Shown: piece after piece, positions 16,171-45,673 of the stretch
How the letters are laid out: each line of letters starts with the position of its first letter
Position numbering within the stretch: the first letter of the stretch is position 1
Source of the DNA: Fundidesulfovibrio terrae
GTDB taxonomy: Bacteria; Desulfobacterota; Desulfovibrionia; Desulfovibrionales; Desulfovibrionaceae
DNA length: 64,000 nt
Reading direction: 5' to 3'
Assembly (NCBI RefSeq): GCF_022808915.1
Contig: NZ_JAKZFS010000001.1
Location: forward strand, 822,644-886,643
The notes under the pieces: generated by a model
Told to the model about the DNA's origin: nothing
The model's database searches: none
What the model saw: only the letters and a program-made list of their open reading frames with translations
Translations under genes and position numbers: made by a program

Positions 16171-18783
16171 ATGCTGCTTGTTCTTCCCATTATCCCTTCA
16201 TCGGAAAGCGACGCGTCCGTATTGCTCACTGAGGTATGCGGAAAGCCGCTGCTGTTGCATCTCGCTGAGAGGCTCGCCACCGTGCGACGCTTCGCGCTTC
16301 GCGTGTTCACGACCGACAGCGAAATGAAGTCCCGCCTGGAGTCTGCCGGGATAGCCGTGGAGTACGAACCTGCTGGCGAAGAACAGTATATTTCGTATCA
16401 TGACGGGGTATTGCGGGCGCTTTCCTATTTATTGAAGCATGAACAGGTCGAATTGGATTCACGGGTCGTCGTTCTGGACTGCAGAAACCCCTTCATGTCC
16501 ACTGATACGATCGAGGAATGCGTTTCCTTGCTTGCCTCGGATGCGTCAGACGGCCTCGCGACGTTCGAAAACGTCCGCGACCATCCTTTGCAGTTGTTCA
16601 ACGTGCATCGGATTTCCCTGGTCGACATGTACGTGTTCCTCGAGCCTCAATCCGAGGCGTCGAGCATTCTGCGCCGGTTCTGCGTCGAAGACGAATGCGT
16701 TGTCAGCTCGAAGTTCTATTTCGATTGGCGAGGGGCGGATGTCTGGGGCCAGGAGACGGCGGCCTACGTGGTCGATTCCCATCCCCGGGCTGCAATGGCC
16801 GGCATGCGCCGCGTGCTTGATCCGCTCCGGGCTTTGAGCGAGGGGCGAAAGGTCTTGCTGTGGGAGTCTCCCTGGTCGGCGCGCAGGCTTTTCCCGGCCG
16901 GGACGTCAACCGACGCTGACGCGGCTCGGAGCGCTTTGGGCCGTGACGCCTGTCCGCTGCTCATGATCCGTCGTGAGTCCGGCGCCGTCACGGTTTCGAG
17001 CTCGAGCGGGGGGGGCGGGCACGGGATACTGAGAATTTGGCCGTTCGTCGGCAACGAATTGGGGGCCGTCATAGAGCAGGAGGTCCCAGCTGGCGTCTGG
17101 AGCGCACGCCTGCCTGTCCAACCGGCGTTCGTTGATGGATTTCTTGGAGTTCTTTTGGAACAGCCGAGCGACGGGACTCATGATTATATCGAGCATATCA
17201 CGGGGTCCGATTTGTGGGCGATCGACCCGGTGACAAAGCGTCCCATGGAGCCGGAATCCGGCAGGCTGCTGTGCAACCGTCAGGATTTTCCACAGTTGGC
17301 GGTTCTCGATGACGCCGTCTTCGGGGGGACTGTCGAAAGGCTTCAGGCCTTGGGAGATTTAGGACGTTCCTGGCGAATGCTCTCCCTGGGCGGGGATGAG
17401 CGTATCAAGGTCCGTACGCCCCTGGACGTTCTTTGGGCCGAGAGCAATGCCAGTTGCGGCACGAGCCCGGATGCCTTGTCGCGCCGGGAAGGCTTCGCGC
17501 CAAGTGCGGGCGACGCTTCGGCCATGCCGGCAGACGAGACCGATTCCCGACAACAGGAAGAGGGGCGCCCTGATGCGAGGGCGATTACGGATGTCGCGGG
17601 CCTCGAGCGGTTCGTGGCCTGGCACAAGAGTGCCTTGTGCGGAGCTGCAAGTGTTGATTTGCCTTCGCTTGCGCATGGGGAGGATGGCGGTTTTCAGGCC
17701 TCTGTGGATTTTGAACCTGTCGCTGGCGTGTTGTCCGAATCAGTTTGGGTCTGCGATAATATTCGGGCAATGGTTTCCGCGGGTAAGTTTCGGGGAGGCG
17801 AGAATTGTCTGGTCGATGCAATTGTTGAAGCCAGAAGAGTGCAATGCAGTGCGTTGCTGAATGAATTTCTTGAACTGGAAGTCGGTATATGCAACAGGGC
17901 GATCCGCGATGCGAGATCGCGCGTTGATGTGGATCAATGTGGTGCCGGGCGCAAGCGCAAAGACATTCATATGGTTGAGGTTCCTGAGCAGGCATTGCCG
18001 GTTTCTCCGCAAATACTGACATCGGATGGGGTGTCGACGCTTTTTATGTATGCTCATTCAAAGGCGATGAAGCCTGGGCTGTTTTCAAAGGACCTGGATA
18101 GCGGGGCATGGCAGGATATCAGTTATAATGAGGCGTCCTATTGTGGCGTATGGTTCGATGTGCGCCGAGATTTTCTGTATACCATGTTTTATGCTGATGC
18201 GGCTGGGCAGCGGACAGGGATTGATGTTTTTCACAAGGACGGGAAGCATGAGGCAAGAGTGTTCTTTGATGAAAATAAGTTCCATAATCCGCAGGCGCTG
18301 GCGCGGTTGCACGGTAATGAAAAAAGTCTTTTCTTTATTGATTACGCGTGCGGATTGATATACGAAATCGATAAGTATTCTTTTGATGTTGTCGATGTGC
18401 ATCAGCATCAGATAATTGCAGGTGCGTCAGATTTTAAGTGCAGTGATTCAGATGTATATATTGCCGTGCTGCGTGAAAGTGTGTATGCAAAAATCAATTT
18501 ATCAAATAGAAAAATAAAATATTATTCAAGCGAAGATACTATTTTTCCTTCACTTATTGAATACGACAGGGTGAACAATAATATTGTAGCTCTTACCATG
18601 GAGAAGATTCCTAGCAGCTCGGCACCGCTGCGTCATTTCCTGAAAATTTTCGATTTTAACTTCAATATGTTGCACAGTGCTGACCTCGGTCCGATGTTTG
18701 TCAGGGGAATGGATGTTCTTGGCGTCAGCCGGCGTGTCGTATTGGCTGATCACAATGCTGGGATTCGTTGCGTATCAATATAA
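16171..18783 (+). CDS. Degenerate cytidylyltransferase-like domain fused to beta-propeller-like domain
   Basis: 870 residues. The first 200 resemble the cytidylyltransferase next door: a VCGKPLLLHLAERL segment, VVVLDCRNPFMSTDTIEE and a DHPLQLF pattern in the expected order. The RGGSKG nucleotide loop, however, is replaced by SSESDAS, so CTP chemistry is doubtful. The middle (about 210-560) I do not recognise. The C-terminal 270 residues have repeated beta-strand pattern (for example SLFFIDYACGLIYEIDKYSF), consistent with an NHL- or WD-like propeller. The DNA of the last 800 bp is strongly AT-rich compared with the operon. I infer a binding or scaffold role rather than catalysis; the function is unknown. 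Confidence 0.65.
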   Translation: MLLVLPIIPSSESDASVLLTEVCGKPLLLHLAERLATVRRFALRVFTTDSEMKSRLESAGIAVEYEPAGEEQYISYHDGVLRALSYLLKHEQVELDSRVVVLDCRNPFMSTDTIEECVSLLASDASDGLATFENVRDHPLQLFNVHRISLVDMYVFLEPQSEASSILRRFCVEDECVVSSKFYFDWRGADVWGQETAAYVVDSHPRAAMAGMRRVLDPLRALSEGRKVLLWESPWSARRLFPAGTSTDADAARSALGRDACPLLMIRRESGAVTVSSSSGGGGHGILRIWPFVGNELGAVIEQEVPAGVWSARLPVQPAFVDGFLGVLLEQPSDGTHDYIEHITGSDLWAIDPVTKRPMEPESGRLLCNRQDFPQLAVLDDAVFGGTVERLQALGDLGRSWRMLSLGGDERIKVRTPLDVLWAESNASCGTSPDALSRREGFAPSAGDASAMPADETDSRQQEEGRPDARAITDVAGLERFVAWHKSALCGAASVDLPSLAHGEDGGFQASVDFEPVAGVLSESVWVCDNIRAMVSAGKFRGGENCLVDAIVEARRVQCSALLNEFLELEVGICNRAIRDARSRVDVDQCGAGRKRKDIHMVEVPEQALPVSPQILTSDGVSTLFMYAHSKAMKPGLFSKDLDSGAWQDISYNEASYCGVWFDVRRDFLYTMFYADAAGQRTGIDVFHKDGKHEARVFFDENKFHNPQALARLHGNEKSLFFIDYACGLIYEIDKYSFDVVDVHQHQIIAGASDFKCSDSDVYIAVLRESVYAKINLSNRKIKYYSSEDTIFPSLIEYDRVNNNIVALTMEKIPSSSAPLRHFLKIFDFNFNMLHSADLGPMFVRGMDVLGVSRRVVLADHNAGIRCVSI

Positions 18784-18846
18784 TGTTCACGCCGACTTCC
18801 GCACGTATTGGTGTGGTGCTGCATACTGAACGCGTTGAAAAGGGCA

Positions 18847-34547: not shown

Positions 34548-35324
34548 CTATTTGAGCCCCACCACGTAGAGCTCCGCCTCGTCGCCCTCGGGCAGGCTGC
34601 CGAAGGCCACGGCCTTGGGATAGCCCTTCACCCGCAGGTAATAGGAGTTCCCCTCGTCCAGGGAGTTCTTCACCGCCCAGGCGTCGAAGGCGCTCTCGCC
34701 CATGGAGAACTTCACGCCCTTCATGGGGTATTCCAGCACGGCCCTCTCGGGCACGGTGCCGCGCGGGCCCACGCCGTGCGCGTCCACCTCGGCCCCCTCG
34801 GTGCCGAAGATGGCCCCTGCCCAGGCGTGACCCTTGGCCGGGCCGACCTCGAACCATTGCCCCAGGCCCGGCAGAGGGTGGATGTCCAGGTGGTACTGCG
34901 TTGCGACGGCGGGCACGGGCGTGTTGGCCTTGGCCACCAGCTTGGGCATGAGCGACGCGTCGTCGGCCAGGGCGACTGCCCCCTTGAGCGGCGTGGGCAG
35001 CGTGGCCGGGTCCACGGCCCCTGCGTCGCCGATGATCAGGATGGGAAATCCGTGCCCCTTCAGGGCCTGCACCATGGCTGCCAGCATGGACAAGCCGTAG
35101 CGCTTGGTCTCGTCGGCGAAGCTGGCCTGCGCGCCCCGGATCACCCATGCCGCCGTCTCGGGCTTGGATATCTCGGAAAATGCCCCCGCCCATTGCATCT
35201 TGTCCAGGTCGTCCACCCAGAAGTGGCCGTTTACGCCCAGTCCGTAACGGTGGATGGCCTCGAAAAGCGCCTTCCCCTTGGCCTCGTCCTTTTCCAGGAT
35301 GGTCGCCCAGATACTCTTGGTCAT
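34548..35324 (-). CDS. Hypothetical protein in T6SS locus
   Basis: 258 residues from the ATG at 35324 (AAGG about 8 nt upstream); an upstream ATG at 35345 adds 7 residues. I do not recognise the family. It starts MTKSIWATILEKDEAKGKALF, broken here only by normal flow into an HFWVDDLDKMQW segment. The middle contains ILIIGDAGAVDPATLP, and the end is beta-rich (SYYLRVKGYPKAVAFGSLP). No signal peptide, transmembrane helix or cysteines in pairs are seen. It is the first gene of the minus-strand unit that includes the two small paralogs and is divergent from the NlpC/P60 gene. A T6SS accessory, effector or structural role is possible but not shown. Confidence 0.65.
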   Translation of the reverse strand: MTKSIWATILEKDEAKGKALFEAIHRYGLGVNGHFWVDDLDKMQWAGAFSEISKPETAAWVIRGAQASFADETKRYGLSMLAAMVQALKGHGFPILIIGDAGAVDPATLPTPLKGAVALADDASLMPKLVAKANTPVPAVATQYHLDIHPLPGLGQWFEVGPAKGHAWAGAIFGTEGAEVDAHGVGPRGTVPERAVLEYPMKGVKFSMGESAFDAWAVKNSLDEGNSYYLRVKGYPKAVAFGSLPEGDEAELYVVGLK

Positions 35325-35436
35325 GACCCAACCTTTGCTAAACATTGAGAAAGAGGATTTTCCTTTGTCTTAAGCTTTGCTATAGCCCATTGCCAAGGGC
35401 CAGGACAACAATTTCCGTCCGTCCGGAGTTGCCTCG

Positions 35437-36006
35437 ATGACCACCGGTGCAAAGTGGGTGTTGGCGTGCTTTCTGATCGTCTCGGCGTGCCTTTCGGCGC
35501 TGGGGCTCGGGCTTGGAGCGCGCTCGGCCGCCGCCCCGGCCCGGCCCGCCTCCGACAGCCAGGGCATGGAACTCACCCTGGACATCCTGCGCGGCGGCGT
35601 TCCCCCCTGGTTCGCCCGCGAACCGGCCTTCGCGGCCCGGCTCCTGGCCCTGGCCACGTCCCAGGTGGGGCGCGGCTACGTTTTCGGCGGGGCCACCCCG
35701 GCCGGATTCGACTGCTCGGGGTTCACCAGCTGGGCCTACCGCAAGTCGGGCGTGGAGCTGCCGCGCACCTCCGGCCAGCAGTTCCTGGCGGGAAAGCCCG
35801 TGGCCGTCTCCGGCCTGCGCCCCGGCGACCTGGTGTTTTTCGGCGGCTCGCGTGTGGACCATGTGGGCATCTATCTCTCCGAGGGCCGGTTCATCCATAG
35901 TTCGCGCTCGAGCGGGCATGTGGCCGTGGATGATCTCTCGGGCTCCTATTGGAGCCGCAACTTCGCCGGCGCGCGCCGCGTCGCGTCGCAGGAGGCGATC
36001 CGATGA
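35437..36006 (+). CDS. NlpC/P60 family cell-wall peptidase, exported
   Basis: 189 residues. The N-terminal 30 residues are a hydrophobic signal region with a possible lipobox (VSAC). The NlpC/P60 domain follows, with catalytic Cys93 in DCSGF, His142 in DHVGIYL and His154 in FIHSS. The family cleaves D-Glu-DAP peptide bonds in peptidoglycan. Its stop overlaps the next gene (ATGA), so the two are translated together. Position within the T6SS locus raises the idea of a peptidoglycan-opening enzyme for machine assembly. It could also be a Tae-like amidase effector, but an own signal peptide argues against T6SS delivery. Confidence 0.88.
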   Translation: MTTGAKWVLACFLIVSACLSALGLGLGARSAAAPARPASDSQGMELTLDILRGGVPPWFAREPAFAARLLALATSQVGRGYVFGGATPAGFDCSGFTSWAYRKSGVELPRTSGQQFLAGKPVAVSGLRPGDLVFFGGSRVDHVGIYLSEGRFIHSSRSSGHVAVDDLSGSYWSRNFAGARRVASQEAIR

Positions 36007-36755
36007 CCCATTCATCCCGCCGCCCCCCCGCCTGCTCCCCGCCGCGCCCCCACAGGACGCAGGCCGTGGCGCTGGCCCTGCTGGCGCTGCTCCTCATGGT
36101 CCGGTCCGCCCAGGCCATGCCCCTAAACGACGTGCAGCTGGCCCAGGCGGCCCATTTCCCCTTCGACGCGACCCTCACCGTCAAGGACGCCATGGAGAAG
36201 TATTCCTACTTCTCGCGCGTCACCTGGCAGGTCTACTACGACATCAACGACAAGAAGGTGGTGGAGGTGCGCGGCTATTACGACATGGCCAAGATCAAGA
36301 CCCGCACGGATGCCTCCACCTGCGTCACCCGCGCGGGGGTGTTCGTTGGGCTCTCCGACGCCCAGCCCTTCATGATCCTGCAGTACCGGCCGGACTTCCT
36401 CAAGCAGCGCGCCGAGCTCGTCTATTCGGGGCTCTGGGGGCTCTACGACGACCAGCGCCTGGACGACCCGGACCTCCTCTGGGCCAAGGCCCTGGTCACG
36501 GACGAACTGCCCAGCCCGACGCCCTTGTGCAACATGAGCCTGGACCAGATTTCGCCGATGGACCAGCTGGCCATCCAGGAAGAGCCCGTGCGCGACCCCG
36601 GAGCGCCCGTGCCGCCAAAACAGACGCCCCAAGGCATACCCCGCACCGCTCCGGCCACCCCCAAGGGGCAGACAGGGCCCACGCCGAAATCGGCGGCGGC
36701 CACGGCCAAGCAGATCCAGGACAACCCGCCCACGCCCACGAAGACGGGGAGATAG
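36003..36755 (+). CDS. Exported protein of unknown function, coupled to NlpC/P60 gene
   Basis: 250 residues from the ATG at 36003, overlapping the NlpC/P60 stop. The N-terminus has a signal peptide (ALALLALLLMVRSAQA), so mature protein would be periplasmic or secreted. The mature domain has two cysteines that could pair (CVTRAG and LCNMS) and a YDINDKKVVEVRGYYDMA segment. The last 60 residues are Pro/Thr/Lys-rich and probably disordered. I do not recognise the family. Tight coupling suggests it works with the peptidase, as a partner, regulator or, if the peptidase is toxic, protective protein; these are guesses. Confidence 0.72.
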   Translation: MTHSSRRPPACSPPRPHRTQAVALALLALLLMVRSAQAMPLNDVQLAQAAHFPFDATLTVKDAMEKYSYFSRVTWQVYYDINDKKVVEVRGYYDMAKIKTRTDASTCVTRAGVFVGLSDAQPFMILQYRPDFLKQRAELVYSGLWGLYDDQRLDDPDLLWAKALVTDELPSPTPLCNMSLDQISPMDQLAIQEEPVRDPGAPVPPKQTPQGIPRTAPATPKGQTGPTPKSAAATAKQIQDNPPTPTKTGR

Positions 36756-36829
36756 GACGTACTGCCGCCAGGAACACCGACCTATTCCTTATTTCTTCTC
36801 GGGTGCATGACAGGGTGTGGCTATGTATT

Positions 36830-37178
36830 TTATCTCTTTGAAAATGTGTCGGAACCTATTCGGTTTGAGTACCACATCCAGTCTTGCTCTTGGTCGTCAC
36901 TTATGTTGGTGATATGTAGCCAGTGTGTTAATATTGTCTCTTTGTTTTTTTCAACTGTATGTTGTCCGGCCCATGTCACTATTGTTTTTGTATTTTTCAA
37001 ATTTTGCATGGAACGTAATTATGTCGTCAAGATACTGTCCTGAAATGTCAACCCAAAGAATTTGTCCTTCATCACCCACGCCAGAATCAAATCTGCCTGT
37101 TATTTTTCCATCTTTTGCTTCGAGCTCAAGGTTTGAGCCGTGTTGATTGATCCATACTCCTGAAAATAAGTTTGGCAT
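36830..37178 (-). pseudogene. Avidin/streptavidin-like biotin-binding protein, broken by a +1 frameshift
   Basis: From the ATG at 37178 the first frame reads GVWINQHGSNLELEA, GRFDSGVGDEG and ISGQY, matching streptavidin N-terminal strands (N23, S27, S45, V47 and G48 equivalents kept). That frame stops at TGA about 36951. In the +1 frame the match continues: TIVTWAGQ (W92), ILTHWLH (W108), then WYSNRIGSDTF (W120 and D128), ending with TAA at 36830. One extra base between about 36980 and 37000, in or near an A-run (GAAAAATAC), explains the break; removing one A gives a 115-residue avidin with no signal peptide. GAGG lies upstream of 37178; an ATG at 37232 overlapping the previous stop is an alternative start. 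The gene is about 40% GC (119 of 300 bases counted), far below its neighbours, a sign of transfer. It is the last gene of the VgrG/PAAR operon, the usual place for a T6SS cargo. It may be a true pseudogene or a sequencing error. Confidence 0.75.
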
Positions 37179-37228
37179 GGTCGACCTCGTCGAGTTTAGA
37201 TGGTTGGAAGATAATCTTTCCTCTCCAG

Positions 37229-37630
37229 TCATCCCAGCGTCAGCACCGTCACTTGGCTGGGCGCGATGGTCAGCCCGACCGCATTCGGCAGCTCCACCAG
37301 GCAGTTCTGCCGCGTGAGGCTCGTAAGCCGCTGGCAGGGCGCGGCGTCCATGAAGATGGTGAAGCACCCAAGCGTATAATCGGTCTGGCCGGACTCCAGG
37401 TGCGACACCACGCCCAGTTCCACGCCCGGTTCGTCGCCCTCGCTCACCAGCCCCATGGACATGAGGTTGATCACCGGCATGCAGTCGATGGTGATGTTGT
37501 CCGCCGCGGGCTGCGTGGTGATGGACTCCGAGATGTTGGGATAGGGGATGGGCACGGGCACCACGATGGGCGTCAGGCACACGTCGGGGAAGGCGAAGTC
37601 GATTCCGGCTCCCATGGTCAGTGCGAACAT
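37229..37630 (-). CDS. PAAR-like (DUF4150) T6SS tip protein
   Basis: 133 residues from the ATG at 37630, with AGGAG 9 nt upstream. AFPDVCLTPIVVPVPIPYPNI is broken across the DUF4150 core: PDVC-x-TP followed by VPIPYPN. Further cysteines (CMPV, GCFTIF, APCQR) and the end LPNAVGLTIAPSQVTVLTLG fit the PAAR-like family. These small proteins cap the VgrG spike and carry effectors. It lies downstream of VgrG, DUF2169 and pentapeptide genes on the same strand, 11 bp after the pentapeptide gene, so it shares their operon. The next gene is the avidin-like reading frame. Confidence 0.85.
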   Translation of the reverse strand: MFALTMGAGIDFAFPDVCLTPIVVPVPIPYPNISESITTQPAADNITIDCMPVINLMSMGLVSEGDEPGVELGVVSHLESGQTDYTLGCFTIFMDAAPCQRLTSLTRQNCLVELPNAVGLTIAPSQVTVLTLG

Positions 37631-37641
37631 GCGTGTTGCTC

Positions 37642-38703
37642 CTATGCGCTTACGGCGGGCCGGAACGATTCGGCCTCGGCCATGTCCTTGTTGGTGGGAC
37701 GCACGAGCGCGCGCAAGGTCAGGTCGTAGAGGGCGTGCTCGTCTCGCATCATGTGGAAGTTGGCCATGGTCATGTCGGCGCGGCTGAAGTCGGCGGCGGT
37801 GCAGTCCGCGCGGGAGAAGTCCGCGTGGCGCAGGTCGCAGCCGGTGAATTTCGCGCCCCGGCATTGGGCCTTGGCGAAGGCGCACTTGAAGAGCGAGGCT
37901 CCGGACAGGTCGGCCGCGCCGAGGTCGGCCTCGGAGAACACGGAACTGGTGAAGACGCCGCCAGCCAGTTTGGCGGCCTTGAGGTCGGCCCCCAGGTACA
38001 TGGACTTGGAGCCGTCCGCGCCGGTGAAGTCCGCGCCCGAAAGGTCCGCCTTGCCCAGGTGGCAGTAGTTGAGCCTGGCCTTGACGAATTTGGCCCCGGC
38101 CAGGTTCGATCCCGAGAGGTTCACCTGGGTAAGCGTAAGTCCGGAGAAGTCCTGGCCTTGCAGGTTGCAGCCGGTGAGCAGGGCTTTTTCGAAGCGCACG
38201 TCCTTGAAGGACACGCCGGTCAGGTCGCATCCGGTGAGGATGGCCTTCACGAACGCGGCCCCGGCGAGGACGGCCTTGGAGAGATTGGAGTCGCGCAGGG
38301 TGAGCTTTTCCATGGTCGCGCCCGTGAGGTTGGCCCCGGCGAAGGACGCCTTGTCCACCACCGACCAGTAGAGGCGCGCCCCGGAGAGGTCCGCGCCGGT
38401 GAAGTCCGAACCGCCCAGCAGCGTCATCTGGGTGGCGGCGCCCTTGAGGCTGGCCCCGGCGAAGACGGTCTTGGAGAGGTTCATCTTGGCCAGGTCGCAG
38501 CCGTCGAGGGTGGCGCCCGAGAAGTCGCACTTCTTGAAGCCGGCGTCCTTGACGTGCGCCCCGGCCAGGTTGGCGTTCCTGAAGGACACCTTCTCGAAGC
38601 GGATTCCCGTGAGGTCGGCCCCGGAGAGGTCAAGCCCGGCGAGATCCGCCCCGACGACGGGCCTGCGCTCCCTGGCCGCGTCCAGTATGTCCTGTCTGGT
38701 CAT
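37642..38703 (-). CDS. Pentapeptide-repeat protein
   Basis: 353 residues made almost wholly of A(D/N)Lxx-type pentapeptides (for example GADLAGLDLSGADLTG), predicting a right-handed quadrilateral beta-helix of four-sided coils. It has no signal peptide. The start overlaps the stop of the DUF2169 gene (ATGA). In T6SS loci such proteins accompany DUF2169 and PAAR-like genes and are thought to act as adaptors or cargo scaffolds. The DNA itself is repetitive because of the repeat code, so shadow frames appear on the other strand. Confidence 0.9.
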   Translation of the reverse strand: MTRQDILDAARERRPVVGADLAGLDLSGADLTGIRFEKVSFRNANLAGAHVKDAGFKKCDFSGATLDGCDLAKMNLSKTVFAGASLKGAATQMTLLGGSDFTGADLSGARLYWSVVDKASFAGANLTGATMEKLTLRDSNLSKAVLAGAAFVKAILTGCDLTGVSFKDVRFEKALLTGCNLQGQDFSGLTLTQVNLSGSNLAGAKFVKARLNYCHLGKADLSGADFTGADGSKSMYLGADLKAAKLAGGVFTSSVFSEADLGAADLSGASLFKCAFAKAQCRGAKFTGCDLRHADFSRADCTAADFSRADMTMANFHMMRDEHALYDLTLRALVRPTNKDMAEAESFRPAVSA

Positions 38704-41700
38704 GGCTGCTCCAGGAGGTCCGCCTTGCCTTCCAGGGCGGTCATCTTGAGGTTGGTTCCGGTGAAGCGGGTCTTGCCCACCACGGCCTTGTGGAAGTCCA
38801 CCCCGAAGCAGTTGGCCCCGGCCAGGTTGGAGCCCACGATGCGCGTCTTGGAGAGCGATCCGAACAGGAGGTCCGAGCCCGAGAGGTCGGCCCCCTCCAG
38901 GTCAGAGCCAGGGAACGAGGTGCCCCGGGCGCTGGCCCCGGAGAGCTGCGCCTGGGTGAGCGAGGAGTTCTCGATGCGGCAGCGCGAGAGCGTGGCCCCC
39001 CGGAAGTCCGCCCCGGGCATGGTCGAGCCCCGCACGTGAAGGGTGGAGGCCTGGGCGCCTGTGAAGTCGCAGCCCGGCAGCCTGCAGTCGGCCAACGCGC
39101 CCTTCTTGAACACGGCCTTGGCGAAGACCACGTTCCTGCCCGCGCACTGCTGGATCTGCGAGCTGGCCAGGACCGCGCCTGTGAAGTCCGCGCCGTCGAG
39201 GATGGTCTTGCGGATGAGCACCCGCTCGAGTTGCGCCTCGCGCCACACGGAGTTCGCGCCCTGGCATTCCTGCACGGCCATGAGGTTGAGCCTGGCCCCG
39301 GAGAACACCGCCCCGGTCAGGTTGGACTTGGTGAGGGCGGCCAAGCGCATGTCCGCGCCTTCGAGATCCGCGCCTTCGAGGTCGGCCTGGTTGAGGCTGG
39401 CCTGGCGCAGGTCGGCTCCGGAAAGCAGGGCCTTTTTGAAGCTGGTCCTGGTGAGCATGGCCTGTTCGAAACGCGCCCCTTTGAGGCTCGCGCCGGTGAA
39501 GTCCGCGTTCTGGGCCATGGCCTTGTTGAAGGTGCAGCCGTCGAGGACGGCCTTCGTGAAATTGGTCCGGCCCAGGCGGCAGCCGGTGAAGTCAGCGCCG
39601 GAGAGGTCCAGGCCCGAGAGGTCCACCCCGGAGAGGATGGCGCCGGAAAGCGTCCGCCCGGCCGCGTGCATGGCCACGACCTCCTCGCGGGTGCGGGACA
39701 CCATGGCGTCCAGGTCCATGCCTGCTTTCTTGAACTGGGCCTTCATGTCCTCTGGCACTTCGCCGGGCTTTGCGGACTTGGCCGCCTCGACCTTCTTGGC
39801 CGCTTCGGCCAGCTTCTTCCGCCCCTCCTGGAAGCGGGCCTCGGAGTCCGCCCCGAGCTGTTCGGCCTGGGCGGCGGCCTTGGTCATCTCGGCTTCCTGG
39901 CCGGGCGGCAGGATTCCCTGGGCCTTGAAGGCGTCGCGCTTGGCCCGGATGTCCGATGCCAGCCGCGCCCCCAGCTGGTCGGCGGGCGTGCGCGGCGCGG
40001 CCTTGGCCTCGGCCATGATCCGGTCGTAGTCCTTGCCCTGTTTGGCCAGCGCCTCGCGCACCTGGGATTCCATGTCCTTCATTCTGGCCTTGAGGCCGTC
40101 GAACCGGGCTTGGTGGAAAGCCTTGACCTCGGCCATGGCGGACTGGACGAGCCCGCCGATGTCGGGCAGGGCGGGGCGCTTTTTGGCCGGGGCCGGGCCG
40201 AAGGGGGGCTCGGGTTCGTCCTCGGGCAGGCCCACGGCCGCGCGCGGCAAGGCGTCGAAGATGAGCTCGCGCAGGTCCTCGCCCTTTGCGCGGGCCTCCA
40301 GGCAGTCCGCCCCCTTGGCCAGGGTCAGCCATTGGGCCTTGTCCGACAGGGCCAGCCAGGGCGCGGCCCCGGAAAGACTTTTCTGCGATCCCCGGGATGC
40401 CGCCACCAGCACGGCGGGCGCGGTTTTCACGGCCTTGGCCGCCGCCGGGGACGGCGTTTCGGCCGGGGAGGCCAGGGCCGCCACATGGCAGACGTCGCCT
40501 ACTTCCTGTTCCAGGAGGTTCGCTTCAAGCTCGGTGGCGGCGACGATGACCGGCGCGGTCTCGTCCGGCGCGGCCAGCCACAAGGGGGCCGGGTCGGAAC
40601 CGGGCGCGAGGTATGTGGCCCGGAGGTCGCCGGGCCAGCCCGGAAGCACCAGGATGCGCGTAAGTTTCTTGCCCTCGAACCGGGGCAGGGTCAGCCCCGC
40701 CGGGATGGTGAACGCGCCCCGGGGCAGGCCCCAGTCCGCGCCCTCGAAGGCGGCCGGTTCCGCATTGTACCCGATCCAGCAGGCCGAGAGGGTGCTGGTC
40801 GTGAATCCTGCGGATTTGAGACGGGAAGTGAGGGCCGGGTCGCCCTCAAGGGCGCGGCGGCAGCGGGTCACGAAGGGAAACCCCGAGGCGTGCCAGGGGC
40901 CCAGTCCGTCGTCCTTGTCCGGCAGGAGGTTGTCCGGATCGATGCCCGCATTGGCCAGCTGGCCCGGCGTTGCCACGGCTTTCAGGCGCGCGCCAGCGTC
41001 CTTTTGCATGTCCGCCTTCCTGGCGACGGCCTTGGCCTTGACCTGGGAGACCTTGGCGGCGGCCGCGTCGATCTTCTTGGCCGTGTCCTCAAGCGCGGCC
41101 CGGCGCGGGGCGAAGGAGGCAGGGTCCAGCACGGCCCGCCAGCCGAACTGGTCCTGGAGCTTCACCGCCATGGCCTCCATGGAGTCCAGGGTGGCCAGGC
41201 TCGCGGCGATGGTCTGCCTGCCCATGGCGGCCATCTCCCCGGGCTCGCGGGCCATGACCGGGACCTGGCCCATGGCCTTGGCCTTGATCTTGGCGATGTC
41301 CTTGTAGACCCGATTGAATTTGAGCAGTTCCCGGTTCACCTTGAGGTTGGCGTCCGGGATCACCGGCGCGACCGGCTTCATGGCCTCAATCCGCCTGGTC
41401 TGGACCTCCAGGTGGTGCTCCAGGCTGCCGGGGGCCTGTCCCATGGGCTCGGTGGCCACATAGGCGTAGCGCACATCGGCCATGTCGTCGCGCTCGGTGT
41501 TGAAGACCCCCCGGAAGACCACCACGCCCTTGGCCGCCTCGGGGAAGAGCCACAGGGTGTCGATGCGGAGGGGAACTTCCTCGAAGGTGTCATTTTCGGG
41601 CGGGGCCTTGGGGCCTTCCTTGCGGGTCATGAACAGGCGCACCGTGAATTGCGGCAGGCGCGAGGTTATGAGCTGGCGCTTTGGGTGCATGTTCACGATC

Positions 41701-42425
41701 TCAATGGCCTCGCCGCCCTTGAAATAGTCCTTCCCCCACTGGTCCGGAGGCGATCCCAGGAAGAATTCGGGGTTGAGGTCGTCGGGATAGTAGGGCCAGC
41801 GGTCCCGTTTCCAGGTGTCGTCGTAGGTGCCGGCCTTATTCTGGCGTTCGGGGTGCATGACGTCCCGCGGCAGGAACGAGGCCGGTTCGGGACGGTCCTG
41901 GGGTGACCCCATGAGCTGGCCGTGGTACTGCACGTTGGGCAGCGGCACGGGCGCCTCGCCGGGCTTGTCCGGGGGCATGCCCAGGCCCTTGGGGTTTCTG
42001 GGCTCGCCCGCGCCGCCGAAGGCCCGCTCCCAGGTCAGGGGCATGACCGTGAAGGGCGCGGGATCGCTCACCCCCACCACGGTTCCGCCTGCGCGCACCC
42101 AGTGGCGGTCGCCGAACACGTCCAGGACCTTGCGCACGCCGCCGACGCCCATGCTCACCTGGGCCGCCTGGCGGGCCTTGCCGTCCGGAGCGAAGCATTT
42201 CCCGGCGGCCAGCACCTCGGCGCGCGGCTTGGGCAGGCCCGGGTCCAGCACCGGGGGACTGGGCAGAAGCTTCATCACCTGGGGCCACATCTCGCGGTCC
42301 GGCAGAGGGGTCTCCGGGTCGTCCAGGTCGAAATAGACCATGACCGTGCACACCAGGCGCATCTTTCCCATGAGCGCCAGGGGCAGGAACATGGGGCTGT
42401 GGTGGGGGTCCTTGAGAATCTTCAT
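38700..42425 (-). CDS. DUF2169 protein fused to coiled-coil and pentapeptide repeats (giant T6SS adaptor)
   Basis: 1241 residues. The N-terminal 350 residues are a DUF2169 domain (MVYFDLDDPETPLPDREMW is within it, then WERAFGG and NPEF-type turns). DUF2169 proteins act as T6SS adaptor/chaperone factors for PAAR-like or VgrG-linked effectors. The middle (about 360-900) is rich in Ala, Lys and Glu with helical, coiled-coil character (RMKDMESQVREALAKQG). From about 930 to the end the protein is pentapeptide repeat (LSGVDLSGLDLSGADFTG), like the next gene. The fusion is long for the family. It is followed without gap by the pentapeptide gene and sits between VgrG and PAAR-like genes. Confidence 0.85.
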   Translation of the reverse strand: MKILKDPHHSPMFLPLALMGKMRLVCTVMVYFDLDDPETPLPDREMWPQVMKLLPSPPVLDPGLPKPRAEVLAAGKCFAPDGKARQAAQVSMGVGGVRKVLDVFGDRHWVRAGGTVVGVSDPAPFTVMPLTWERAFGGAGEPRNPKGLGMPPDKPGEAPVPLPNVQYHGQLMGSPQDRPEPASFLPRDVMHPERQNKAGTYDDTWKRDRWPYYPDDLNPEFFLGSPPDQWGKDYFKGGEAIEIVNMHPKRQLITSRLPQFTVRLFMTRKEGPKAPPENDTFEEVPLRIDTLWLFPEAAKGVVVFRGVFNTERDDMADVRYAYVATEPMGQAPGSLEHHLEVQTRRIEAMKPVAPVIPDANLKVNRELLKFNRVYKDIAKIKAKAMGQVPVMAREPGEMAAMGRQTIAASLATLDSMEAMAVKLQDQFGWRAVLDPASFAPRRAALEDTAKKIDAAAAKVSQVKAKAVARKADMQKDAGARLKAVATPGQLANAGIDPDNLLPDKDDGLGPWHASGFPFVTRCRRALEGDPALTSRLKSAGFTTSTLSACWIGYNAEPAAFEGADWGLPRGAFTIPAGLTLPRFEGKKLTRILVLPGWPGDLRATYLAPGSDPAPLWLAAPDETAPVIVAATELEANLLEQEVGDVCHVAALASPAETPSPAAAKAVKTAPAVLVAASRGSQKSLSGAAPWLALSDKAQWLTLAKGADCLEARAKGEDLRELIFDALPRAAVGLPEDEPEPPFGPAPAKKRPALPDIGGLVQSAMAEVKAFHQARFDGLKARMKDMESQVREALAKQGKDYDRIMAEAKAAPRTPADQLGARLASDIRAKRDAFKAQGILPPGQEAEMTKAAAQAEQLGADSEARFQEGRKKLAEAAKKVEAAKSAKPGEVPEDMKAQFKKAGMDLDAMVSRTREEVVAMHAAGRTLSGAILSGVDLSGLDLSGADFTGCRLGRTNFTKAVLDGCTFNKAMAQNADFTGASLKGARFEQAMLTRTSFKKALLSGADLRQASLNQADLEGADLEGADMRLAALTKSNLTGAVFSGARLNLMAVQECQGANSVWREAQLERVLIRKTILDGADFTGAVLASSQIQQCAGRNVVFAKAVFKKGALADCRLPGCDFTGAQASTLHVRGSTMPGADFRGATLSRCRIENSSLTQAQLSGASARGTSFPGSDLEGADLSGSDLLFGSLSKTRIVGSNLAGANCFGVDFHKAVVGKTRFTGTNLKMTALEGKADLLEQP

Positions 42426-42435
42426 GCGCGGGGTC

Positions 42436-44691
42436 CTATATGTACTCCACGGCCGCCGCGAGCACCGAGACGTTGGTGGAAAGGTCGGTGATGTCTCCGG
42501 ACATGCGCTGGATGCTGCCCGCCTGGAGGTTCAGCGTGCCGCGCACCTGCTCCACCTCCCCGGACACCTCGTTCTTGGCGGCCAGCACCTCCTCCTTGGA
42601 GGCCAGGGTGGCGGTCTTGTTGGCGATGGCCTGGTTGTAGTCGGCGGCGATGGTGTCCTTCTGCCCCGCCAGCTCCTGCTTGGTGGCGCAGGTGTCCACC
42701 CTGTTGGTGATGGTGTCGATCTTGGTGTTGGCGAGCCTGATACCGTCGAAGAGGATGTCCACGTTGTCGCTCACGACCTTGGTCTTCTGGTCCACCATCT
42801 GGGTGTAGGCGGCGGTGATGGTGTTCTTTTCCGCGCCGAGTTCGGTCTTGGTGGCGTAGTCCTTTTCGATTTCGCCCTTCAGGTGCATCTCCGCGCTGGA
42901 GTAGGCGAGCTTGCTGGGGAACTGGTATTCCACCAGCCCGCCCAGGACCGTGTCGATCTTGGCCCCCAGGGTCGTGCCCGTCTCGAGGCCCACGACGATG
43001 TCGTTCTTGTTGCCCAGGATCATTTCGAAGCTCTCCTGGGCTTTGATGGTCAGCGGCCCGCCGGTGTAGAGCTTGAGGCCGTCCGGGCTCAGGGCCTGCT
43101 CCGTGTTGGTTTCCGGTTCGCCTCCGGAATCGTCGGGATCGTTGTGGGAGCCGATTCGCACGAAGGTCTGCTGGGTGGGGCTGGAGAGCAGGATGCGTTG
43201 GTTGCCGTCCTGGTCCTCGAAGTGGATGAGGTTGCCGCCGGAGGTGGTGATGCGGGCCTGGGTCTGGCTCTGGTCGGTGACGGGGCTTGCGGTCTCGGGG
43301 TTGGGCACAGCGTTTGAGATGACCGGGCGGTCCGGGTCGCCGCCCTCGAAGCTCACCAGCACCTCGCAGCCCTTGTGCAGGGGCATGTGCATGCCGAAGC
43401 CCGCGCCCGCGTAGGGCTGGGCCATGCGCACCCAGGCCGAGGCGTGGCCGTCCTTGCGCCCCGAGAGGTCGAAGGGGAGGATGATCTTGTAGCGCCCTTG
43501 CGAGTCCACCTCGGCGTACTTGCCGGACCCTGCCGCGTCCACCTTGGCCGAGAGCGTTCCGGCGATTTTCGGGCGGTCCGTGGCCAGCTCGGCCCGGAAC
43601 TGCACCGAGGCCGGGATGGCCGTGAAGGAGTTGCGGTAGAAGAGCAGGGCGTCGCGCTCCTTGCCGAAGGAGAGCCCCAGCCCCGAGACCAGCCAGGCCT
43701 CCTGTGAGCCCTCATGCGTGCAGGCGATGGTCTGGTAGGACTGGTTGAAGCTGTCGCGGTAGTGGTTGTCCACCTTGAAGGTGTAGCCCGGGCGCACGAA
43801 GGGAATGCTGGAGACCCCGGTGAACACCTTCTCGCGGCATTTGAACTCCTGCACGCGGATCTGGGCCAGGGCCTTGCCCTGGGAGGTGTTCAGGAAGTGC
43901 AGCCCGTAGAGGTAGTGGACGCCCTGGCCGTTCTGGCTCACCTCCTCCTCGGCGGTGAGCTCAAGCGACGGCGTCTGGTAGTTGTAGTCGCGCAGCTGCA
44001 CCTTCTGGGGCAGGCGGCGCTGGGTGAGGATCAGGTCCGTGACCACCTCCTCCTCGTGGCCCACCTGCATGGAGGAGGGCGGCGAGTAGCGGAAGCTCTC
44101 CCCCTGGGGCATGGGGCCGTGGGCCGTGAGGGTGTCGGTGACCACCAGCTTCTCGCCCGTGTCGCCCTGCTCGAAGAAGTAATAGAGGCCGTCGCGTTCC
44201 ATCCAGCGGGAGGCGAACTCGAAGTGGGTCTCGCCGTACTGGCAGAGGTAATCCCAGGTCGGATACGAGCTCTGGAGCGACATCTTGAAGTCCAGGCCGG
44301 GGTTCAGGCCGCCGTCCTTGAACACGGCGGTCAGGAACTGCTCGATGTTCTGGTCCAGGAAAACCTGGTTGTGCGTCGTCTGGGTGAGCCACCACGCCTT
44401 GGGAACGAGCACCGCCCGGTAGAAGGCGTACGGCCCCGATTGGGAGAGCTGCTCGAAGCGCTCGAGGATGCCGTGGAAGGGGATGTCCCCCTGGGAACGC
44501 TTGATGGTGAAGGTGGCGGTGTTGGCGAGGGCCTTTTCGAAGTCCACCTCCTTGTCCCCGGCGAAGAGCACTATCTCGAAGCGGTAGAGCCGGGAGAGGC
44601 CTTCCTCGCCGGTGAAGCGCACCACGTGGAAGGTGTTCTGGGGCATTCCCTGGATGGTGAAGCTGAATTTCGCTTGGGCATTGCTGGCCAT
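42436..44691 (-). CDS. vgrG: VgrG (TssI) spike protein with C-terminal coiled-coil extension
   Basis: 751 residues from the ATG at 44691 (GGAG 5 nt upstream); a GTG at 44697 is possible. The N-terminal part matches the gp27-like region (FHVVRFTGEEGLSRLYRFEI, then FHGILERFEQL), and the gp5-like OB part includes GKYAEVDSQGRYKIILPF and PYAGAGFGMHMPLHKGCEVLV. The beta-helix section follows. From about residue 560 an extension of about 190 residues is Lys/Glu/Ala-rich with heptad-like pattern (TKTELGAEKNTITAAYTQMV), probably a coiled-coil stalk rather than an enzymatic domain. VgrG forms the puncturing tip of the T6SS tube. It is the second gene of the tip operon. Confidence 0.93.
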   Translation of the reverse strand: MASNAQAKFSFTIQGMPQNTFHVVRFTGEEGLSRLYRFEIVLFAGDKEVDFEKALANTATFTIKRSQGDIPFHGILERFEQLSQSGPYAFYRAVLVPKAWWLTQTTHNQVFLDQNIEQFLTAVFKDGGLNPGLDFKMSLQSSYPTWDYLCQYGETHFEFASRWMERDGLYYFFEQGDTGEKLVVTDTLTAHGPMPQGESFRYSPPSSMQVGHEEEVVTDLILTQRRLPQKVQLRDYNYQTPSLELTAEEEVSQNGQGVHYLYGLHFLNTSQGKALAQIRVQEFKCREKVFTGVSSIPFVRPGYTFKVDNHYRDSFNQSYQTIACTHEGSQEAWLVSGLGLSFGKERDALLFYRNSFTAIPASVQFRAELATDRPKIAGTLSAKVDAAGSGKYAEVDSQGRYKIILPFDLSGRKDGHASAWVRMAQPYAGAGFGMHMPLHKGCEVLVSFEGGDPDRPVISNAVPNPETASPVTDQSQTQARITTSGGNLIHFEDQDGNQRILLSSPTQQTFVRIGSHNDPDDSGGEPETNTEQALSPDGLKLYTGGPLTIKAQESFEMILGNKNDIVVGLETGTTLGAKIDTVLGGLVEYQFPSKLAYSSAEMHLKGEIEKDYATKTELGAEKNTITAAYTQMVDQKTKVVSDNVDILFDGIRLANTKIDTITNRVDTCATKQELAGQKDTIAADYNQAIANKTATLASKEEVLAAKNEVSGEVEQVRGTLNLQAGSIQRMSGDITDLSTNVSVLAAAVEYI

Positions 44692-44733
44692 GTGCACTCC
44701 GGGTCAATCGTTCATGGCTGGGGCGGCGCGGGG

Positions 44734-45396
44734 CTAACCCATGTGGATTTGTTCGGCGTTGATGACCACCTGCTCCTCGGCCATCATGGAGTGGTTCTTC
44801 GCATGCAGGGCGCAGAGGTCCGAAACGAGCACGCGGCGGGACCCGGCCTGCACCTCGTCGTGCTCCGCGACGAAGCGGGTGGATTCCTGGGCGCGCTGGG
44901 TTACGCGCGCGAACATCTGGTCCACGCTTTTGGCCACGGCGCGCACCTTCTTGAAACGGGACCTGAGGGCGCGGCCGATCAGGCTCACGCGCTCGATGAC
45001 CGCGCTGCCGGTGGCCGCATGCACGGCGATTTCTCCCGAGGCGGCGGTGATGGCGCCGGGACAGGCCAGGGTGAGGTCCGAGCCCAAGGCCACGGTGAGA
45101 CTCCCGCCGCGCACCGACAGGCTCGCGTCGCCGTCCACGGCCAGGTTCACCGGCGAAGCGCTCTCGAGCACCGCCAGCACGTAGGCGCGGCCCGCGATGT
45201 CCACCGAGAGGAGCACCGCGTCGCCGGGCGCGGGCTCCACCAGGCAGCTCACGGCGCGCACTGCGGCCAGGGGGCCGAAGGACGCCTCCACCTCGAACAG
45301 CGCCCCGGGGCCGGGGTGGGGGGGGGAGGCCAGGACGCGGCCGTACTCGAGCGACGGGGAAGGCGGGGCGACGGGGGAGGGCTTCGCGCTTGGCAT
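44734..45396 (-). CDS. DUF3540 T6SS-associated protein
   Basis: 220 residues from the ATG at 45396, preceded by AGGAG at 6 nt; an extension to 45486 crosses a repeat and lacks a site. The beta-rich start LEYGRVLASP with VRAVSCLVEPAPGDAVLLS is typical of DUF3540, followed by a Gly/Ser-rich run and helical VRAVAKSVDQMFARV. DUF3540 genes travel with DUF2169, pentapeptide and DUF4150 genes in T6SS tip operons; the exact role is unknown. This is the first gene of the minus-strand tip operon. It contains MFARVTQRAQESTRFVAEHDE, an amphipathic helix that could join the spike. Confidence 0.78.
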   Translation of the reverse strand: MPSAKPSPVAPPSPSLEYGRVLASPPHPGPGALFEVEASFGPLAAVRAVSCLVEPAPGDAVLLSVDIAGRAYVLAVLESASPVNLAVDGDASLSVRGGSLTVALGSDLTLACPGAITAASGEIAVHAATGSAVIERVSLIGRALRSRFKKVRAVAKSVDQMFARVTQRAQESTRFVAEHDEVQAGSRRVLVSDLCALHAKNHSMMAEEQVVINAEQIHMG

Positions 45397-45417
45397 CGGT
45401 ACTCCTGGGGTGGGAAA

Positions 45418-45456
45418 GCCTCCGGCTGTCAAAGGGCGTAAGCCCTCTGGACTCCC
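45418..45456. repeat. Dispersed hairpin repeat, copy 1
   Basis: GCCTCCGGC then TGTCAAAGGGC-GTAA-GCCCTCTGGACTCCC. A near-identical block occurs at 55194-55233, but the inner stem differs with matching changes on both sides (GGGC/GCCC here, GGGA/TCCC there), so the hairpin is conserved rather than the sequence. It lies in the 277-bp gap between the DUF3540 and AMIN genes, which otherwise holds no gene I can support. Confidence 0.6.
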
Positions 45457-45673
45457 ATGCGGGGGCCGGGATGATGGCTCCCCCATACGACAGGTTTGCC
45501 CTTTTGGACAAGCAAATTCACGGATTTGGGCGCAGCGCGGCCTGCGGCGGAAGACGTCCGGGGCCGGGAGAGGCGCTGGTCAGGGCAGAAGGAGGAAGCA
45601 AGGAGGCCGACGCGGGGACGGGGGCGGCCCGGCCGCGCAGGGGGGTTCGGGCGGGCGGCGCGAGGGCCGAAGA

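Follow-up and report, generated by a model that had tools for sequence, protein, structure and literature searches.

An avidin-family gene split by a frame offset beside a T6SS spike operon of Fundidesulfovibrio terrae: probably a horizontally acquired copy that was recently inactivated

Avidins are rare in the sampled genomes, and little is understood of what they do in nature. Passages of a 2021 survey describe for the bacterial avidins a patchy distribution, carriage on plasmids and gene neighbourhoods in which terms for recombination and defence occur, and the term 'type VI' is absent from its main text (PMC8033661). For the streptavidins of Streptomyces, a further paper reports that they act within a biotin-pathway antibiotic network (PMC13336041). 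The second system of relevance here is the spike of the T6SS. According to passages on the class III Tvp systems, these load a DUF4150 tip onto VgrG, and the resulting spike is able to carry Hcp-dependent cargo; the tip of Serratia, Paar1, is there set against specialised PAAR effectors (PMC13373197). DUF2169 is described, again in passages, as the chaperone of DUF4150 tips, the DUF2169-DUF4150 tips are tied to effector delivery, and DUF3540 is assigned to the pentapeptide-type synteny (PMC11883445). An avidin as a T6SS effector was proposed in no title or abstract start among the matches listed, a search with subscription papers outside its scope.

The window analysed here is a stretch of 64,000 nucleotides of the Fundidesulfovibrio terrae genome. 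On its minus strand, an operon was identified that codes for a TvpC-like DUF3540 protein (44734..45486; PF12059), VgrG (42436..44697; PF05954 and PF04717), a TvpAB-like protein with DUF2169 fused to pentapeptide repeats (38700..42425; PF09937 and PF00805), a separate TvpB-like pentapeptide-repeat protein (37642..38703; PF00805) and a DUF4150/Tox-PAAR-like (PIPY) spike-tip protein of 133 amino acids (37229..37630; PF13665). The PF13665 match reaches 62.5 bits over 37229-37537, and the ATG of the DUF4150 gene was placed at 37630 by tblastn with relatives. Genes for a sheath-like protein, TssJ, DotU and an IcmF-like protein lie nearby on the plus strand. When the Pfam assignments are set beside the passages of PMC13373197, the operon has the gene content of class III Tvp systems, namely VgrG, DUF3540, DUF2169-pentapeptide, a separate pentapeptide protein and DUF4150. 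Since this content matches the published spike-assembly module, the T6SS context named in the original prediction is real.

The avidin gene is the last in this row, on the same strand and 50 bp downstream of the DUF4150 gene. No minus-strand terminator-like site was found between the two genes in a pattern scan, in which promoter and terminator patterns occurred near shuffled expectation; with the short same-strand gap, this makes cotranscription of the avidin gene with the DUF4150 gene possible. A putative ribosome-binding site, GAGG, was seen by eye six bases 5' of the avidin ATG.

The proposal that two overlapping minus-strand frames together form an avidin homolog was borne out by profile searches. 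Frame A (36951..37178, minus strand), which starts with an ATG at 37178 and ends at an early TGA after 75 amino acids, represents the N-terminal half of the avidin family and matched positions 2-48 of the 116 positions of the Pfam Avidin profile PF01382 (28.3 bits, E 2.4e-6). Frame B (36830..37009, minus strand; 59 amino acids, open to 37018) represents the C-terminal half and matched positions 66-116, up to the profile end (26.1 bits, E 1.2e-5). Each scored singly, both frames exceeded the gathering score of 24 bits, in profile order and on the same strand. In a whole-genome search with PF01382, the frame A piece covered positions 2-69 with 27.2 bits and the frame B piece positions 65-116 with 21.6 bits, which is below the cut-off in that search; no second avidin was found by it in the genome (3.9 Mb, 7 contigs). 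A custom avidin HMM was built from 26 untrimmed ORFs that code for avidins in other genomes, after five of the 31 ORFs located (L025, L026, L031, L032 and L035) had been omitted as fragments or duplicates. It gave 40.2 and 32.6 bits for frames A and B, which were its sole matches when the window was cut into 1026 six-frame segments; the reversed window and all five local shuffles were without a match at E values up to 10. That the stretch 36830-37178 codes for a member of the avidin family is beyond chance; as sequenced, the gene is broken.

In an alignment in which positions beyond the break were ignored, the equivalents of N23, S27 and S45 are found in frame A and those of W92, W108, W120 and D128 in frame B, so that all seven residues originally listed are present. 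These seven correspond to the biotin-site residues of the avidin family. At other aligned avidin positions, the substitutions Y43F, N49D, W79F, S88T and T90V were identified; position 90 is valine in the window gene versus threonine in all 13 intact aligned sequences, which were chosen from the 31 located. A signal peptide, whose absence had also been predicted, is not visible on frame A, where the Pfam match already begins at residue 5. In a Pfam search up to E 0.1, the halves matched Avidin and a sub-threshold COQ9 alone, and no fused PAAR-like or sorting domain was found. Such a fusion is common in T6SS cargo effectors, but it is not obligatory.

The predicted split by one base was likewise observed. 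Frames A and B are one base out of register, they overlap in the A-rich stretch 36951-37018, and an uninterrupted avidin frame across the whole barrel is absent as sequenced. Runs of A within the overlap are at most five bases long, with one run of seven at its edge. Apart from the offset, the gene is without visible damage, and the absence of a further stop in frame B ahead of the domain end fits a recent break. Six neighbours (VgrG, DUF2169-pentapeptide, pentapeptide, DUF4150, a 265-aa protein and the convergent gene described below) were compared with genus-mate ORFs of at least 120 amino acids, and no frame break was found in them; four two-frame rows, one each in the loci L010 and L011 and two in L012, were set aside, as they were antisense or out of frame to the six genes. 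Because the six neighbours are unbroken, a general frame noise of the assembly is unlikely here.

The GC content of the avidin gene is 38.7%, versus 64.4% for the DUF4150 gene, 67.0% for the pentapeptide gene, 69.2% for the DUF2169 gene and 68.3% for the convergent gene, in line with the low-GC gene amid GC-rich neighbours that had been described. By blastn, the homology of the window to four genus-mates (L010, L011, L012 and L013) ends at the stop codon of the DUF4150 gene and is picked up again in the convergent gene, at 36754-36755 in L010, L011 and L013 and at 36607 in L012. From these points in all four genomes, it follows that a low-GC stretch of 474 bp (36755..37228, minus strand; 41.8% GC) is absent from the genus-mates. 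The convergent gene that bounds the insert (35949..36755, plus strand) has no Pfam match and is conserved in the genus-mates, with 82-87% identity in L010, L011 and L013; its start is uncertain and was judged against L013 to lie at about 36100. No further copy of the insert was found in the genome, where the best hit was a chance-level match of 24 bases, and no repeats flanking the insert were found. Neither an RNA family at the gathering threshold nor a tRNA was identified in the window. Judged by its composition and by the patchy distribution of avidins, the gene probably has a horizontal origin. Another low-GC patch (36-41%) is located at 18201-18800 on the plus strand, at the end of an ORF of 870 amino acids (16171-18783) with a weak nucleotidyltransferase match; cytidylyltransferase and glycosyltransferase genes lie near it.

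The position of the gene had been called a cargo slot, a description that the relatives do not bear out. DUF4150 orthologues were present in five of the seven genomes of the genus, including the own one, and in 30 of 149 genomes of the family at E 1e-10. The four orthologues among the six other genus genomes are 90-95% identical, and the insert is absent behind each of them. The DUF4150 gene is separated from the convergent gene by 104 bp in L010 and L011 and by about 204 bp in L013, in each case by intergenic DNA alone. In L012, about 3.9 kb follow the DUF4150 gene, and at this same intergenic place (L012 4417-8349) a hybrid histidine kinase of 661 amino acids and a 339-aa Lcl_C-like protein, the latter below the Lcl_C cut-off, are encoded. 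The presence of this pair indicates that the spot behind DUF4150 takes insertions.

For the other genera, the best match was read in 20 of the 25 genomes; G001, G006, G082, G087 and G140 were left out, as were second matches in G024, G031 and G095. Over genus-mates and other genera, six downstream proteins were put to Pfam, so that an unrecognised effector may be among the others. In 12 of the 13 of these 20 loci with a nameable follower, DUF4150 is followed by T6SS structural genes or by a conserved 257-aa protein. The latter, without Pfam match, comes next in six of the 20 loci (L089-L093 and L095). TssB/TssC is the first recognisable T6SS gene in four (L097, L098, L100 and L101), called by Pfam for L097 and by likeness for the other three, with a 105-aa ORF preceding it in L100. 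Single followers are an Hcp match (L105), a FliG_C match (L106) and, by eye, a VgrG-like ORF (L108). Outside this count are seven loci, of which L099, L102, L104 and L107 were unassigned and L094, L096 and L103 could not be called, due to GC-rich ORF noise or a contig end. An avidin was found behind DUF4150 in none of 25 slot loci, namely the four genus-mates, the 20 loci of other genera and L014, a distant DUF4150 paralogue locus in G075. As far as it is readable, and with unassigned proteins left among the followers, the place behind DUF4150 lacks the behaviour of an effector slot. The conserved protein of 257-265 amino acids, which is also encoded in the window (34548-35345, minus strand) and in L108 and L013, is met again and again in the family, either directly behind DUF4150 or elsewhere in the same T6SS neighbourhood, and the two members scanned are without Pfam match; perhaps it is an undescribed T6SS-associated family.

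Avidins were also searched for in other genomes, in samples of family, class and phylum that overlap. None was found in 148 other genomes of the family or in 198 others of the class, where the own genome was the sole match, and one in 246 other genomes of the phylum, with a signal-like leader. A second phylum sample (198 genomes, centred on G485) contained G485 and one match at the contig place of the earlier one, presumably the same genome. In the order around G483, which was taken from a Janthinobacterium locus, six of 349 genomes including the centre have an avidin, and in the class around G482, from the locus of a Rickettsiales MAG, six of 385, again including the centre. Two avidin matches each are present in G482 and in G484, a Saprospiraceae MAG; the pair in G484 shares one strand, at a spacing of about 0.6 kb. 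A contig scan with one N-terminal avidin pattern, which misses avidins without the pattern, turned up 19 loci, of which 11 are from Streptomyces. No relatives were found in viral contigs or in a first scan of the contig collection, and frame A matched nothing among plasmids and phages. Closest by tblastn were the avidin on a Rhizobium gallicum plasmid (L016), with 40% identity to frame B, and the avidin of a Deltaproteobacteria MAG (L034), with 37% and 33%. The Rhizobium gene (L016 5719-6195, plasmid pRGM101a) is an intact avidin ORF at a place where the PLSDB table, incomplete by its own description, has no gene. N-terminal avidin fragments are encoded in a cyanobacterial MAG (L031 2325-2468), where the fragment seems to stop early inside the contig, and in an acidobacterial MAG (L035 10001-10093), where it lies near a contig end; further partial avidins may exist.

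T6SS tip genes were also looked for beside other avidins. At E 0.01, the window's VgrG, DUF2169, pentapeptide, DUF3540 and DUF4150 proteins gave no tblastn match in 32 avidin loci, a comparison run without an out-of-family positive control, in which a small DUF4150 protein could escape at distance. Some of these contigs are short (3.0, 4.7 and 7.8 kb), L015 and L032 are seemingly one contig, L024-L027 are one Streptomyces, and the avidin of L059 was not relocated by tblastn. Intact avidin orthologues beside T6SS tips, looked for in related genomes, were not found.

These results are best explained, with a probability of about 0.7, by an avidin gene of the short-loop type, without a signal peptide, that was acquired horizontally, was most likely inactivated recently and is a chance neighbour of the T6SS operon. 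A small AT-rich gene of this kind would have arrived by horizontal acquisition and landed in the intergenic space behind DUF4150, the last gene of the spike-tip assembly operon, so that its adjacency to the operon would most simply be a tolerated insertion at the operon 3' end. Before the break, the product was probably a cytosolic biotin binder; with the one-base offset, an N-terminal half-barrel alone would be made, without the biotin-site tryptophans and aspartate. Since the gene is split as sequenced and would yield this half alone, a recently inactivated gene is the most likely reading. Against inactivation speak the plausible ribosome-binding site, the possible cotranscription with DUF4150 and the lack of other visible damage. 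The main alternative to a recent pseudogene is a local sequence error in the A-rich stretch, with the gene intact in the living cell and coding for a working cytosolic avidin without any T6SS link. This is possible, with a probability well below even: the sole visible lesion falls where a low-GC gene is rich in A, the domain landmarks are retained on either side of it, and seemingly signal-less avidins occur elsewhere, as the domain begins within a few residues of the likely start, judged by eye, in L030, L034 and L058. In passages of the avidin survey, signal peptides are given for about half of the putative avidins (PMC8033661). However, the six adjoining conserved genes are free of frame errors, and no relative of the insert is near enough for selection to be tested. 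That the two halves are deliberately made from two frames, by recoding or a second start, as a split or regulated avidin, is highly improbable. The frames do overlap and frame B has an ATG of its own at 37009, but no ribosome-binding site was seen ahead of this ATG by eye, the runs of A in the overlap are short apart from the seven at its edge, and a split gene was not noticed among the avidin relatives, where none was sought specifically. With general assembly noise unlikely and no visible signal for recoding or for translation of frame B, recent inactivation is favoured.

It is also very improbable that the avidin is or was a T6SS cargo, carried on the VgrG-DUF4150 spike and injected into a target cell that is thereby starved of biotin. 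For this speak the same-strand position 50 bp behind DUF4150, as the last gene after DUF3540, VgrG, DUF2169, pentapeptide and DUF4150, the lack of a visible signal peptide, the general habit of such loci, and the link of DUF2169-DUF4150 tips to effector delivery in passages of PMC11883445. An avidin cargo would be compatible with a class III Tvp system, since its spike may carry Hcp-dependent cargo. The orthologous sites without avidin, the mostly structural or conserved accessory T6SS genes among the nameable followers or the empty place, the avidin loci without tip genes, the missing fused sorting domain, the broken state of the gene and the literature titles and abstract starts listed all argue against it. 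The T6SS link rests on adjacency and on the general habit of such loci and is unsupported beyond that. It is hardly probable, too, that an avidin was recruited as class III Tvp cargo for biotin sequestration, with a broken copy here and intact ones in unsampled relatives. A T6SS-delivered vitamin sequestrator, if true, would be a weapon of a new type, which makes it worth noting that at present little besides adjacency speaks for one and that the copy is broken as sequenced. On the preferred reading, an avidin copy in a family in which no other was found adds a further case of likely horizontal movement.

Compared with the known systems, the window operon has the same gene content as the VgrG1-Paar1 class III Tvp module of Serratia marcescens; in the passages of PMC13373197, no avidin is mentioned for that module and the tvp-paar genes lie downstream of vgrG, whereas the window operon adjoins an avidin gene and has DUF3540 upstream of VgrG. 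Streptavidin has the seven ligand residues in common with the window gene and about 32% identity over frame B, but unlike it carries a signal peptide, and its loop is longer. A short middle loop is a trait of rhizavidin-type avidins, and the label 'Rhizavidin-like' is here a judgement by loop length rather than by a tree. The closest likeness is to the rhizavidin or short-loop avidins L016 and L034, which share with the window gene the short middle loop, a phenylalanine at the W79 position and the retained W92, W108, W120 and D128, and, in the case of L034, the seeming absence of a signal peptide; from these the window gene differs by its frame offset and by T90V.
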